A DNA stretch of 64,000 nt from Methanobacteriota archaeon (GTDB lineage Archaea; JAADCQ01; Methanopyri; Methanopyrales; Methanopyraceae): the NCBI GenBank assembly GCA_027064425.1, contig JAMOPO010000015.1, positions 365,959 through 429,958 of the forward strand. Reading direction: 5' to 3'. This document shows, in pieces, positions 4,709 through 56,814 of this stretch (its first letter is position 1; each line of letters starts with the position of its first letter). The translations under genes and the position numbers were made by a program. The notes under the pieces were generated by a model. That model had not been told where the DNA came from, searched no databases, and was given only the letters and a program-made list of their open reading frames with translations.

Positions 4709-4736
4709 TCACCCGGGGACCGCGGTTGGAGGAGGG

Positions 4737-4761
4737 TCGTTTCGAACATCGTAACGATTCG
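4737..4761 (-). repeat. Intergenic palindromic element, copy A
   Basis: Arms TCGTTTCGA and TCGTAACGA flank a 3-nt centre; one arm position departs from perfect symmetry. The element lies 14 bp past the stop of the macro-domain gene and 29 bp upstream of the ABC ATPase start. It matches three other elements in this window (14841, 18135, 56785). A 3'-end hairpin (terminator or processing signal) or a protein-binding site are the two leading readings. Confidence 0.75.
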
Positions 4762-4775
4762 TCCGGCGGGAGGGC

Positions 4776-5357
4776 TCAGCGCAGGGCCTCAGCGAACGCC
4801 TCCGCCAGCTCCTCCTCGTACCCCACCAGGAAGACCCTGCGAACCCGCTCGAGCTCCGGAGCCAGCTCCCGGATAACGCCGACCATGGTCTCCGCGGCGT
4901 CCTCGTAGGGGACGCCGCCGACCCCGGTTCCCATCCCCGGGAACGCGACGGACTCCACGCCCAGCTCCTCCGCCTTTTCCAGCGCCGCCCGGGTGGCCTT
5001 CTCGACGTTCTCCACGCCGATCCGCTGGGCCGGCCGCTCCATGGTGGGTGCGTGGATGACGTACTCCGCGCTCAGCCGGCCCGCGGTCGTGGCGACGGCT
5101 TCACCCACGGGGATCGGCGCCTTCTCGCGCGCCTCGCGCTCGATCTCCTCCCCTCCCTTCTCCTTGATCGCGGCCGCCACGCCGCCTCCCATCACGCCCT
5201 GGCTGTTGGCCGGGTTCACGATCGCGTCCGCGTCCTCCAGCTCGGTGATGTCGCCCTGGAGGACGATCACCTCAACCCCTTCCACTTCGGTGCGGAACAC
5301 CTCCTTCAGGGGCAAGCGCCGGCACCCCCAGCCTCGGGAACCCCGTCGTATCTTCAT
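4776..5357 (-). CDS. Macro-domain (ADP-ribose-binding) protein
   Basis: The protein is a single macro domain: GDITELEDADAIVNPAN (about residues 38-54), the glycine-rich GVMGGGVAAAI, and GMGTGVGGVPYEDAA near residue 140, which together form the ADP-ribose pocket. Family members hydrolyse O-acetyl-ADP-ribose or remove ADP-ribose from targets. The first about 15 residues (basic, WG-rich) look foreign to the fold, and TTG at 5315 is an alternative start giving a more typical length. It is monocistronic, with a C/D-like RNA candidate upstream. Confidence 0.85.
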   Translation of the reverse strand: MKIRRGSRGWGCRRLPLKEVFRTEVEGVEVIVLQGDITELEDADAIVNPANSQGVMGGGVAAAIKEKGGEEIEREAREKAPIPVGEAVATTAGRLSAEYVIHAPTMERPAQRIGVENVEKATRAALEKAEELGVESVAFPGMGTGVGGVPYEDAAETMVGVIRELAPELERVRRVFLVGYEEELAEAFAEALR

Positions 5358-13700: not shown

Positions 13701-14819
13701 GTGGTCGGCATTAAATCTGACCTCGAGGTTCTGGAGACGCTGCAGCGGGACGTAGAGCCGGCCCAGGACGGAGCACTCCCGCGGCTGGTCGACGAGAAGA
13801 TCGTCAAGGAGCTGTACGAGCAGGGTGAGCTGTTCGCCTCCTTCGGCGCCTACTACCGGCGGGAGAAGGGCTGCAAGGTGATGAAGGCGGCCGTGGACGG
13901 GGGCTTCGTTTGCCCGAACAAGGACGGTAGGATCTCGAAGGTGGGGTGCCTGTTCTGCCCGAAGATGGGCCGTACGATCATCACGCCCAACGTGGACCCG
14001 AAGAAGAAGATCGAGGAGCAGGCTAAGAAGCAGATGGAGGTCTTCCGGGAGCGGTACGGGGCGGAGAAGTTCCTCGTCTACTTCTACCCGGCGACGAACA
14101 CGTACGCGCCGCCGGACGTGCTGGAGGAGCTGTACAACCGGGCGCTGGAGATGGAGGACGTGGTCGGCCTGTCCATCGGCACGCGGCCCGACTGCCTGCC
14201 GGACGAGGTCCTGGACCTGCTGGAGGATTACGTGAAGGAGGGCTACGACGTCTGGCTGGAGATCGGCGTTCAGTCGTACCACCACCGGACGCTGATGCGG
14301 GTGCGCCGGGGTCACGGCCTGGCCGAGGTCGTGGACGCGATCATCCGGGCCAAGGAGCGGGGCATTCGGGTGGTCAACCACATCATCTTCGGCCTGCCGG
14401 GCGAGACGCGGGCTGAGATGCTGGAGACCGTGCGGATGCTCTCGGTGCTGGGCGTTGAGGCGGTGAAGCTGTACCCGCTGGTCGTCCTGGAGCGGACGGA
14501 CCTGGAGTGCCTGTACAAGAAGCGGCGGTACAAGCCGCTGAGCTACCGGGAGTACATCCGGCTGCTCGCGGACGCGCTGGAACGGATGGCGCCGACCGTG
14601 CTCATCCAGCGGCTGTCGAAGGACCGGGCGCCGGACGAGGAGGTGATCGAGCCGGAGTGGGACCTGTACCGGATGAGGGTGATCTCCGACGTGCGGAAGG
14701 AGCTGGCGCGGCGCGAGTCGCGGCAGGGTGCCAAGTACAAGGTGGGGCTGGACGCGGACGAGCTGGTGCCGCTGGTCAAGGGGGCCACGGGCGCGGAGGG
14801 CTCGGAGGTCCCGACCTAG
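13701..14819 (+). CDS. Radical SAM protein, YhcC/YtqA (TIGR01212-like) family
   Basis: A 372-residue radical-SAM enzyme. The cluster-binding segment is CPNKDGRISKVGCLFC (about 71-86), as in the YhcC/YtqA family. FYPATNTYAP and the barrel motifs GTRPDCLPDEVLD and IIFGLPGETRAEM follow in the order seen in Elp3-like proteins. The family is linked to tRNA modification, but the substrate here is not determinable. The start is GTG at 13701. It converges on rnpB, with palindrome copy B lying between their 3' ends. Confidence 0.85.
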   Translation: MVGIKSDLEVLETLQRDVEPAQDGALPRLVDEKIVKELYEQGELFASFGAYYRREKGCKVMKAAVDGGFVCPNKDGRISKVGCLFCPKMGRTIITPNVDPKKKIEEQAKKQMEVFRERYGAEKFLVYFYPATNTYAPPDVLEELYNRALEMEDVVGLSIGTRPDCLPDEVLDLLEDYVKEGYDVWLEIGVQSYHHRTLMRVRRGHGLAEVVDAIIRAKERGIRVVNHIIFGLPGETRAEMLETVRMLSVLGVEAVKLYPLVVLERTDLECLYKKRRYKPLSYREYIRLLADALERMAPTVLIQRLSKDRAPDEEVIEPEWDLYRMRVISDVRKELARRESRQGAKYKVGLDADELVPLVKGATGAEGSEVPT

Positions 14820-14840
14820 CCTCCCCACGCCCGGACGCGT

Positions 14841-14865
14841 TCGTTACGAACCTCGAAACGATTCG
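14841..14865. repeat. Intergenic palindromic element, copy B
   Basis: Arms TCGTTACGA and TCGAAACGA flank a 3-nt centre (one mismatch). The element sits 5 bp beyond the 3' end of RNase P RNA and 21 bp beyond the stop of the convergent radical-SAM gene, so it separates two converging units. On the minus strand it reads with the same loop sequence GGT as copy C. Confidence 0.78.
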
Positions 14866-14870
14866 GCGCG

Positions 14871-15330
14871 GCGGCGGCCGTGGGTGGGCTATAGCCCGCC
14901 TTCTGTAGTCTTAGCTGGCGGCATTCACCTCAGCGGCCCACCATCCCCCTCCGGCCCGGTGTTCATCGGGGGCATCACCCTCGTATCATCGGGCTCATTC
15001 GGCCTCGCCCGCCGCCGGGCGGCCCGTTTCACCGATCCCGTCGGCGTCCTCTGCGGGTTAGCTCGGGCCCCGTCGCCGGGGCCCTTCTCGGCCCGCCGAC
15101 GGCGGGCCTCAGCCGCGTCATCGCCATCCGCCGACGGACGTGTCGTTTCTGTGGCCGGACCCCGGCCTCTCGGCCGGCCCCGTCTCGGGGCGGCGGCCCG
15201 GGCCCGGGGGCGGAGCTTCCTCCCCTTAGCGGCCTTCCGGCCGCACCCCGACGGGCCCGCCCTCATTGCCGTGCTCCGGCGGGCCCTTCCTCGGGGCGGG
15301 GGAGCCGCCAGCCCACCCACGGCCGCCGCC
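14871..15330 (-). ncRNA. rnpB: RNase P RNA
   Basis: The minus strand shows conserved archaeal RNase P RNA elements in order. These are a GAGGAAG (CR-I-like) segment near the 5' end, CCACAGAAACGACACGUCC in the middle, and near the 3' end GAGGUGAAUG followed by CUACAGAAGGCGGGCUAUAGCC (CR-IV/V). The first and last 20 nt (15329-15310 and 14890-14871) are perfectly complementary and form an unusually long P1 helix, which sets the approximate ends. The RNA is the catalytic part of RNase P, which matures tRNA 5' ends. Palindrome copy B follows 5 bp downstream. A long open frame on the opposite strand is an artefact of GC richness. Confidence 0.93.
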
Positions 15331-18054: not shown

Positions 18055-18130
18055 GCGGCCGCAGTCTAGTCTGGTAGGACGCGGGCCTTCCGAGCCCGTG
18101 GCCCGGGTTCAAATCCCGGCGGCCGCACCA
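18055..18130 (+). tRNA. tRNA-Gly (anticodon TCC), with C at position 8
   Basis: The 76-nt gene folds as a full cloverleaf: acceptor GCGGCCG/CGGCCGC, D stem GTCT/GGAC with loop AGTCTGGTA, anticodon stem CGGGC/GCCCG with loop CTTCCGA (anticodon TCC), T arm CCGGG-TTCAAAT-CCCGG, and encoded ACCA at the 3' end. Position 8 (18062) is C rather than the near-universal U. In Methanopyrus many tRNA genes carry C8, and the deaminase CDAT8 edits it to U8, so editing is expected here. Palindrome copy C starts 5 bp downstream. Confidence 0.97.
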
Positions 18131-18134
18131 CCCG

Positions 18135-18161
18135 GAATCGTTACGAGGTTCGTAACGATTC
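18135..18161. repeat. Intergenic palindromic element, copy C (perfect)
   Basis: Perfect inverted repeat: GAATCGTTACGA (18135-18146), loop GGT, and TCGTAACGATTC (18150-18161). It begins 5 bp after the tRNA-Gly CCA and lies 20 bp beyond the stop of the convergent DUF505 gene. It is the most symmetrical of the four copies. Confidence 0.8.
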
Positions 18162-18181: not shown

Positions 18182-19996
18182 TTAGGAGGCGGCGCGGCGT
18201 CGGATGCTTCCCGCGTCCCTCAGGACTCGTAGCGCCTCGAGGAGCTCCTCGCCCGCCCGAGTGATCTTCCACCCGCTCATCATCTTCGTCCGCCGGAGCA
18301 GCGTCACCACCTTCTTCGCCTGGTCCAGCGTCACGTCCGCCTCCTTCAGCAGCGACTTCGGGAACTTCGAGAGCTTCTTCGCCCCGAACCCCCGCCCCCT
18401 CAGCTTCGACACGGCCTCCAGGAACCGGGCCGAGACCGGCGTGATCGGATGCCTCAGCTTGAGGATCTCCATCGTCTGGCCCCGATGGATCGCCCGTCGG
18501 AGGTGCCGGCCGGCGCGGGTCAGCGAGACGTAGCCCGTCAGGAGCTCGTCCACGATCCCCCTCGACTCGAGGCGGTCCAGGTGCTCGAGCACCTCGTGCT
18601 CGAGGAGCCCGTACCGGTTCTCGAGGTCCTCGATCAGATCCTCCCGGGCCACCGCCTCCGGCGGGATCCGGTACACGATCTTCGCCTCATCACCGGTCAA
18701 GAACGGGGCCCGTTTCACTCTCCTCGCCACCTTGGCGACCAGGAGCCCGCGCGTGGTAATCGCCGACTTCGAGACCAACCCCTGCCGGTGAGCCTCCTCC
18801 AGCCACTCCGGCGAGGGCGCCTCATGGCCCAGCGACACCGTGACGGCCTTGACGGCGACGGCGCGGACGGGGTCACCGAGCTGGTGCAGCACTTGCTCGC
18901 CTTCCTCGGTCAGCACCCAGATGGGCTTGCCCTTCTCCCTCCCGTAGTCGCAGACGGTCTTCTCGACGAGCCCGTGCGCCTCGAGCTCCTTGAGCTCCGT
19001 GGACGGGTCGGGGTCGCGCTCTCCGTACTCCTCCTCCAGGACGCGCTTGATGCGGGCGAGCGTGGGGGCGACGTTGGGGTTCTCTCCCGGTCGGTGCAGC
19101 CGGTCGATGATCTCTAGGAGTCGGAGCTCTTCCGGCCGGATGCTGACCGGCGGTACGCCCGGAACGTCCTCGCCGAGCATCTCGTAGGCGCGGAGGACGT
19201 GCTCGCCCGCCCGGGTCAGCGAGCCCTCCCACACGTAGCCCAGCCGCTCGAGCCGCTTCATGTCCTCCGGCTCCTCGCCCTCGTCCACGGCCTTGATGTC
19301 CTCCATGATGTCCGGCGAGAGGACGACGTGCATGGCCGGCACGGCCTTCTCCAGCGCGTACTTGACCTCGCGACCCAGGGCGGTCAGCGTGTAGGTCCTG
19401 GCGCCGTCGATGGGCGGCGAGATCACGAGCAGCCGCATCGCCTCGAGCGCGTGCAGGACGCTGTCCGGGATCCCGAGCGTCTCCCGGTACTTGATGAAGG
19501 CCTTGAGCGTGCCCGGGCCGGGTGGGAGCCGGGCGATCACGCCCGAGACGTCCTGGGTCACGTAGAGCCGCGGGGTCGCCCTCAGGTAGGCCTCGAGAAT
19601 GAGCTCGCCCGCCTCCGTGAGCTCACCGTCCTCGGCCAGGCCGCGCTCCCGGAGCAGCTCATCCCAACCGTCGGGCACGGCGGACAGCGAGGCGTGCTTC
19701 AGCGCGAGGATTGTGTCCGAGCCCACCCAGCGCTCGTGCGTCCACTCGTGCGGGTCGCAGCCCAGGATCTCCGCGGCCCGCTCGGCGGCCTCGGCGGCGA
19801 GTCGGCCCGCCTTCGTGAGCTTCCACTCGTTGGAGCCGACCCGGACGGCCAGTCCCTGCAGCTCGAGCTCGAGAAGTCGCCGTGGGACGATCTCCGTGGT
19901 CGTCTCCGCCTCCTCCGCGATCTCGCGCGCTTCCTCCCTCTTACCCGCCTCCTGGACCGTGAGCAGCACGTCCGCGTGGTCGCGCAGGAGGAGCAA
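18182..19996 (-). CDS. DUF505 family protein with repeated winged-helix-like domains
   Basis: A 604-residue protein restricted, as far as I know, to methanogens. Units such as LTKAGRLAAEAAERA, LTEAGELILEAYLRA, LTALGREVKYALEKA, LTRAGEHVLRAYEML and LTRAGRHLRRAIHRG recur about every 90 residues. Each ends a predicted winged helix. This suggests five or six tandem DNA- or RNA-binding modules; no catalytic motif is seen. Its role is unknown. It probably has its own promoter (CTCATAAAAACG near 20030 on the opposite strand). Confidence 0.75.
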   Translation of the reverse strand: MLLLRDHADVLLTVQEAGKREEAREIAEEAETTTEIVPRRLLELELQGLAVRVGSNEWKLTKAGRLAAEAAERAAEILGCDPHEWTHERWVGSDTILALKHASLSAVPDGWDELLRERGLAEDGELTEAGELILEAYLRATPRLYVTQDVSGVIARLPPGPGTLKAFIKYRETLGIPDSVLHALEAMRLLVISPPIDGARTYTLTALGREVKYALEKAVPAMHVVLSPDIMEDIKAVDEGEEPEDMKRLERLGYVWEGSLTRAGEHVLRAYEMLGEDVPGVPPVSIRPEELRLLEIIDRLHRPGENPNVAPTLARIKRVLEEEYGERDPDPSTELKELEAHGLVEKTVCDYGREKGKPIWVLTEEGEQVLHQLGDPVRAVAVKAVTVSLGHEAPSPEWLEEAHRQGLVSKSAITTRGLLVAKVARRVKRAPFLTGDEAKIVYRIPPEAVAREDLIEDLENRYGLLEHEVLEHLDRLESRGIVDELLTGYVSLTRAGRHLRRAIHRGQTMEILKLRHPITPVSARFLEAVSKLRGRGFGAKKLSKFPKSLLKEADVTLDQAKKVVTLLRRTKMMSGWKITRAGEELLEALRVLRDAGSIRRRAAS

Positions 19997-56548: not shown

Positions 56549-56773
56549 ATGGCCTGGCGCGTGTACAAGAAGAAGGTGATCGTGCACCACTACCACCACC
56601 CGGCGCACGGCCACCACGTCGTCGTGCACAAGAAGTCCGGCCTGCTCGGAGGACTCCTGAAGCTCGGACTGGTCGCCGCCGTCCTGGTCCTGCTGGTGAT
56701 CGCCGTGGCGGTGATCGTCGGGCTGTACCTGCTGTACCGGTTCCTCGGCCGGCGACGCCACCGGACTCACTGA
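56549..56773 (+). CDS. Small histidine-rich single-pass membrane protein
   Basis: A 74-residue protein. Its N-terminal 30 residues hold eight His (VHHYHHPAHGHHVVVHKK), followed by one transmembrane segment (about 33-62) and a basic C-terminus RFLGRRRHRTH. Such a His cluster could bind Ni, Co, Zn or Fe at the membrane face. No homologue recognised. ATG start with RBS-like GGGGAACC. Palindrome copy D follows 16 bp after the stop. Confidence 0.55.
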   Translation: MAWRVYKKKVIVHHYHHPAHGHHVVVHKKSGLLGGLLKLGLVAAVLVLLVIAVAVIVGLYLLYRFLGRRRHRTH

Positions 56774-56784
56774 GCCCCCCTCAG

Positions 56785-56814
56785 CCGATCGTTACGAGCG
56801 TCATAACGATTCGG
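56785..56814. repeat. Intergenic palindromic element, copy D
   Basis: Arms TCGTTACGA (56789-56797) and TCATAACGA (56801-56809) with GCG between; CCGA and TCGG extend the symmetry. It follows the His-rich gene by 12-16 bp and lies about 110 bp upstream of the broken helicase gene. Confidence 0.75.

Follow-up and report, generated by a model that had tools for sequence, protein, structure and literature searches.

A genus-specific palindromic element at the 3' ends of stable-RNA genes in Methanopyrus, a putative binding site for a dimeric protein

Four intergenic palindromes of common sequence lie just beyond gene ends in the 64,000-nucleotide stretch of archaeal DNA analyzed here (the window), which raises the question of what these sites mark and whether they are read as RNA or as DNA. 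In its full form the element is the 25-nt palindrome AATCGTTACGA-N3-TCGTAACGATT. Its core, the 21-mer TCGTTACGA-N3-TCGTAACGA, has four copies in the window with 1, 1, 0, and 1 mismatches (positions 4737 to 4757, 14841 to 14861, 18138 to 18158, and 56789 to 56809), whereas 0.02 core copies are expected on average in shuffled windows. A previous reading of the same DNA from its letters (the sequence-only reading) had described four intergenic copies with a 3-nt center and at most one mismatch, the one at 18135 being a perfect 12+3+12 palindrome, and both descriptions proved correct.

The element and its neighbors in the window

For scoring, a symmetric weight matrix was built, with which the highest-scoring 84-nt segment of the window outside the four elements reaches -3.3; the palindromes themselves carry no strand. 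The first copy (positions 4735 to 4759, score 30.8) is located in a tandem gap, 18 bp beyond the stop codon of a macro-domain protein gene (4776 to 5315, minus strand; PF01661), and the next co-directional gene, encoding an ABC transporter, follows 28 bp downstream of the copy. The second copy (14839 to 14863, score 33.5) occupies a convergent gap, in which the Rfam end of the RNase P RNA gene (14887 to 15238, minus strand; RF00373) is 25 bp away and the stop codon of a radical-SAM protein gene (13701 to 14819, plus strand; identified by gene call and family search) 21 bp away. The third copy, the perfect palindrome (18135 to 18161, score 43.1), lies 10 bp from the discriminator base and 7 bp from the CCA end of a tRNA-Gly(TCC) gene (18055 to 18130 including CCA, plus strand), and 23 bp from the stop codon of a convergent DUF505 protein gene (18182 to 19996, minus strand; PF04458). 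The fourth copy (56787 to 56811, score 36.1) is positioned 15 bp beyond the stop codon of a gene for a small His-rich, membrane-like protein (56549 to 56773, plus strand; no Pfam match). The earlier statement that every copy lies 5 to 20 bp past a 3' end thus holds for the association itself, whereas the range was slightly too narrow, given the 25-bp gap at the RNase P RNA gene. In the window, which is an unbiased sample, two protein genes, those for the macro-domain and the His-rich protein and hence about 3% of the called genes, have a copy that is not explained by a neighboring RNA gene.

Distribution among genomes and genes

The sequence-only reading had proposed a search of the whole genome and of related genomes, and in such a pattern search, allowing at most three mismatches, the genome containing the window yielded 68 copies and the reversed control none, while 26, 35, 56, and 69 copies were present in four other Methanopyrus genomes. 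In 36 other archaeal genomes, the pattern search gave a single match each in seven, which is not above the control. The element is restricted to the genus Methanopyrus and occurs hardly at all elsewhere. In Halorubrum and Fibrobacter, the inner 16 bases were matched exactly, each time at a single recurring, similar site with no tRNA gene within 400 bp, and these matches were not counted as members of the family. Many Halorubrum species (loci L037, L041, L052, and others) possess one similar, longer palindrome that includes these 16 bases and has no relation to tRNAs. About 20 Fibrobacter genomes (L026, L033, L049, and others) share a single such site, again containing the inner palindrome, in tRNA-free surroundings.

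The pattern search covered whole genomes, whereas the matrix scan covered only the stretches around sites and tRNAs; these stretches were taken from the genomes G000, AV19 (G002), and G004, their genes were called with a codon model, and 129 sites were listed. All 91 tRNA genes tested in five Methanopyrus genomes are followed by the element, i.e., 30 of 30 in G000, 31 of 31 in AV19, and 30 of 30 in G001, G003, and G004 together, in a sample comprising all G000 tRNAs but one (C5) and part of the tRNAs of the latter three genomes; the corresponding figure for six other archaeal genomes is 0 of 30. The lowest matrix score among the G000 and AV19 tRNA copies is 16.7. The gap between the discriminator base and the element is nearly always 8 to 16 nt; in G000 and AV19 it is 8 to 15 nt, with the exception of the one tRNA having a partial Rfam match (20 to 21 nt), and one AV19 tRNA has an additional, better-scoring copy at 74 nt. 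A comparison of 24 tRNAs of G000 with their AV19 orthologs gave identities of 84% and 72% for the two arms, 29% for the spacer, and 37% for the following 20 bp; being anchored on the best match, this comparison somewhat favors the arms. All 50 tRNA copies analyzed for this feature have an A immediately upstream of the core, and in 37 of 50 the tRNA-proximal half-site is the stronger one (sign test, p of about 0.001), an asymmetry that was not seen at protein genes.

Contrary to the sequence-only reading, which knew of no named element like this, the motif has been described before. In a word-pair study of 2017 (BMC Genomics 18:27, PMC5217627), CGTTA(N)9TAACG was detected at roughly half of the M. 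kandleri AV19 tRNA genes, about 10 bp beyond the gene, and the authors proposed a tRNA 3'-maturation signal. The element contains this same word pair about 10 bp downstream of tRNAs, identical in letters, spacing, and place. While that study reported it for one strain, at about half of the tRNAs, and interpreted the motif as a maturation signal, here all tested tRNAs of five genomes as well as other RNA genes and protein genes carry it, and it is read as a DNA site. New beyond the 2017 report are its universality, its presence at other RNA genes, and the DNA-level reading.

Among the other stable-RNA genes, 5S rRNA is followed by the element in all five genomes (gap of 9 to 14 nt), SRP RNA in four of five (13 to 16 nt; the fifth copy is weak, with a score of 10.4), and RNase P RNA in four of five (16 to 26 nt). 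From the 23S rRNA end, the element is 146 nt away in AV19 and about 135 nt away in G000. For tRNA-Sec, the element lies 9 nt past the end; the G000 copy at C27:117655, placed inside a gene by the gene caller, is the copy behind this tRNA. For RNA genes on the minus strand, where the site lies toward the lower coordinates of the locus, the gap was computed by hand. Two copies (G000:C57:192840 and 193032; L230:8341 and 8533) are situated downstream of a 16S rRNA 3' end truncated at the contig end. Five strong G000 copies have no called gene end or Rfam family nearby (C2 at 516, 1175, 3001, and 3125, L191; C48:893, L222) and possibly mark the ends of unannotated RNA genes.

A few percent of the protein genes carry the element, which follows the stop codon at 13 to 57 nt with one exception. 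They include the genes for mcrB, the chaperonin, ATPase subunit A, an L7Ae-family protein, and ribosomal proteins S10 and L2, and furthermore those for 3-dehydroquinate synthase II, rubrerythrin, and anaerobic ribonucleotide reductase. An overlapping pair of copies is found behind the chaperonin gene (G000:C3:131779 and 131796; L198:2780-2817) and another close pair in G004 (C4:17932 and 17955). Scatter, presence in coding sequence, and absence from relatives, the outcomes that the sequence-only reading had named as speaking against a 3'-end role, were all tested, and all results favor that role. Specifically, 98 of the 126 strong copies in the stretches of the three genomes lie at most 60 nt beyond a 3' end, compared to 39 by random intergenic placement, and only two lie inside called genes, compared to 103 by random placement anywhere; since the stretches were selected around sites, these expectations are local, and they refer to gene calls made in this analysis. 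The 72 strong copies not beside a recognized RNA gene show the same preference (47 at 3' ends versus 22.5 expected). Divergent gaps, which the sequence-only reading had found to be free of copies, are indeed so within the window, but contain seven of the 126 strong copies (25 by random intergenic placement). Overall, the association with 3' ends across genome and genus is strongly supported.

In each of the five genomes, a copy is located behind mcrB (L337 to L341; in G000 at C26:20005, i.e., L211:2506-2526), and in the two operons inspected (G000 and G004) it is directly followed by mcrD and then by mcrC and further mcr genes. Full termination would be harmful at this position, so the element must permit read-through there and is not an absolute terminator everywhere; its presence at only a few percent of the protein genes argues likewise against a general terminator. 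The copy within the mcr operon would be easier to understand if the element were a site for topology or chromosome organization, at which a topoisomerase or a protein of chromatin boundaries would dock downstream of strongly transcribed genes, the places where positive supercoils accumulate. The stable-RNA genes and those for mcrB, the chaperonin, ATPase A, and ribosomal proteins are usually highly expressed, the element is palindromic and orientation-independent, and a precedent is provided by BIME/REP elements, which bind gyrase. Methanopyrus possesses topoisomerase V, described as unique, which would be in line with such a site, but the structure paper on this enzyme states no sequence preference, and the near-constant gap of 8 to 13 nt to the tRNA ends is tighter than topology requires. 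We therefore consider a topology site unlikely.

Reading as DNA or as RNA

A palindrome with a 3-nt center just beyond gene ends could also act as an RNA hairpin, be it a terminator, a 3'-end processing signal, or an exonuclease block, and the maturation signal proposed in PMC5217627 would be of this kind. The perfect copy at 18135 is predicted by ViennaRNA to be folded at 37 to 85°C, but for all five sample hairpins the prediction at 98°C is an unfolded state, which four of them have reached by 85°C, so that they would melt below the growth temperature of this heat-loving archaeon. Half-sites in inverted orientation have a spacing of 3 in 142 cases; every other spacing is represented once at most, apart from -9, where the motif trivially overlaps itself. 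Covariation between the arms was not detected, with 749 paired positions compared to 756 (standard deviation, 6) in shuffles, and compensated changes show no excess (12 versus 14.8). In the tRNA sense, the most frequent change yields C·A, present at pair 7 in 20 of 50 copies, whereas U·G, the pair that the opposite orientation would have kept, is present in five; for all changes in the tRNA sense, A·C outnumbers G·U by 43 to 18, the corresponding counts at protein genes being 18 and 24. A signal specific for tRNA maturation was rejected, as 5S, SRP, RNase P, and 23S RNA genes and protein genes also carry the element.

Features of known terminators were sought as well. None of the 61 tRNAs of G000 and AV19 has a T5 tract within 60 nt, and T4 occurs within this distance at one of 30 G000 and six of 31 AV19 tRNAs; a run of at least four U at the transcript end, as in U-tract terminators, does not characterize the element-bearing tRNAs. 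Of the hallmarks of an intrinsic terminator, neither a stem predicted to be stable at growth temperature (in the five samples) nor a U-tract after the stem nor compensatory arm changes were found. At the ends of protein genes, T5 was present in two of 81 cases with the element and in 12 of 244 without it, so that the idea of the element replacing T-tracts there was dropped, T5 being rare in both groups without a clear contrast.

The fixed spacing, the non-covarying arms, the A·C changes, and the predicted melting together point to a DNA site for a protein of two-fold symmetry, which fits the element, whereas an RNA hairpin fits it poorly and appears improbable. Of the two hypotheses offered by the sequence-only reading, the site of a DNA-binding protein, possibly acting in termination, is thus the one that agrees with the data, and the hairpin is not. 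A DNA-uptake-like sequence was rejected too, because single arms are almost absent outside elements (85 of the 87 occurrences of TCGTTACGA lie inside them). We regard as highly improbable a REP- or MITE-like mobile repeat piling up beyond gene ends by chance: the element is intergenic, multi-copy, and variable in number between species, but every tested tRNA has it at a near-constant distance, copies resemble each other neither in the spacer nor in the flanks beyond about 25 bp so that no longer unit moves, and the arms, nearly absent singly elsewhere, are kept while the flanks drift.

A putative boundary of transcription and its relation to known systems

Its position, its palindromic form, and its occurrence between convergent genes suggest that the element signals the end of transcription units in both directions. 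The location, the universality at tRNAs, the genus restriction, the arms outlasting their flanks, the rigid two-fold geometry, and the lack of RNA covariation were computed directly; protein binding, the dimeric state, and an effect on termination or pausing are what we infer. On balance, the sequence features make it rather probable that the element is the recognition site of a putative dimeric DNA-binding protein that terminates or bounds transcription. The element would mark the 3' ends of a few percent of the mRNAs and of virtually all stable-RNA units, and a sequence-specific, probably dimeric Methanopyrus protein sitting on it would terminate or pause RNA polymerase in either direction, which would account for the palindromic form and for the presence of copies between convergent genes. 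A simple roadblock was dropped as a model because the element is too close to the tRNA end: judging from polymerase footprints, a plain roadblock 10 to 13 bp past a tRNA would halt the active site inside the tRNA. The polymerase would thus have to enter the element, partly invading it in its protein-occupied state before stopping, and trimming to the exact RNA 3' end would then fall to the nucleases normally responsible, RNase Z at tRNAs and aCPSF1.

More tentatively, the sequences suggest a possibility that we view with some doubt: at all its stable-RNA genes, Methanopyrus may use, instead of the U-tract terminators of other archaea, a dedicated system in which a genus-specific protein on DNA terminates or bounds transcription in both directions. 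The literature searched contained no archaeal termination or boundary system in which all stable-RNA genes are served by a specific protein bound to DNA. The element offers a ready bait for its putative protein and dozens of sites per genome for RNA 3'-end methods, and such a system would show how transcription can end near the upper temperature limit of life.

Archaeal terminators are usually U-tracts, read by RNA polymerase and aCPSF1/FttA (PMC8716108, PMC7515710). They share with the element the position at 3' ends, but are single-strand runs of four to seven U, whereas the element is palindromic and poor in T, lacks a U-tract, and is probably read as DNA. For the copy in the mcr operon, a parallel may be the partial termination inside operons that is common in Methanococcus (PMC10450193). 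Like the element, the REP/BIME sequences of enterobacteria are intergenic palindromes beyond gene ends and rare in divergent gaps; unlike it, they are not fixed behind tRNAs. REP units are also longer and are dispersed with a RAYT transposase. In eukaryotes, Reb1 and TTF-I bind the terminator DNA of Pol I at asymmetric, polar sites that serve rRNA genes. The element is likewise a fixed DNA site just past stable-RNA genes, provided that the DNA-protein reading holds, but it is palindromic and specific to an archaeal genus, and its protein is only putative. If a dedicated system of this kind does operate at all stable-RNA genes, it would be a prokaryotic counterpart of the Pol I terminator proteins, suited to life at about 100°C, where short RNA hairpins melt.
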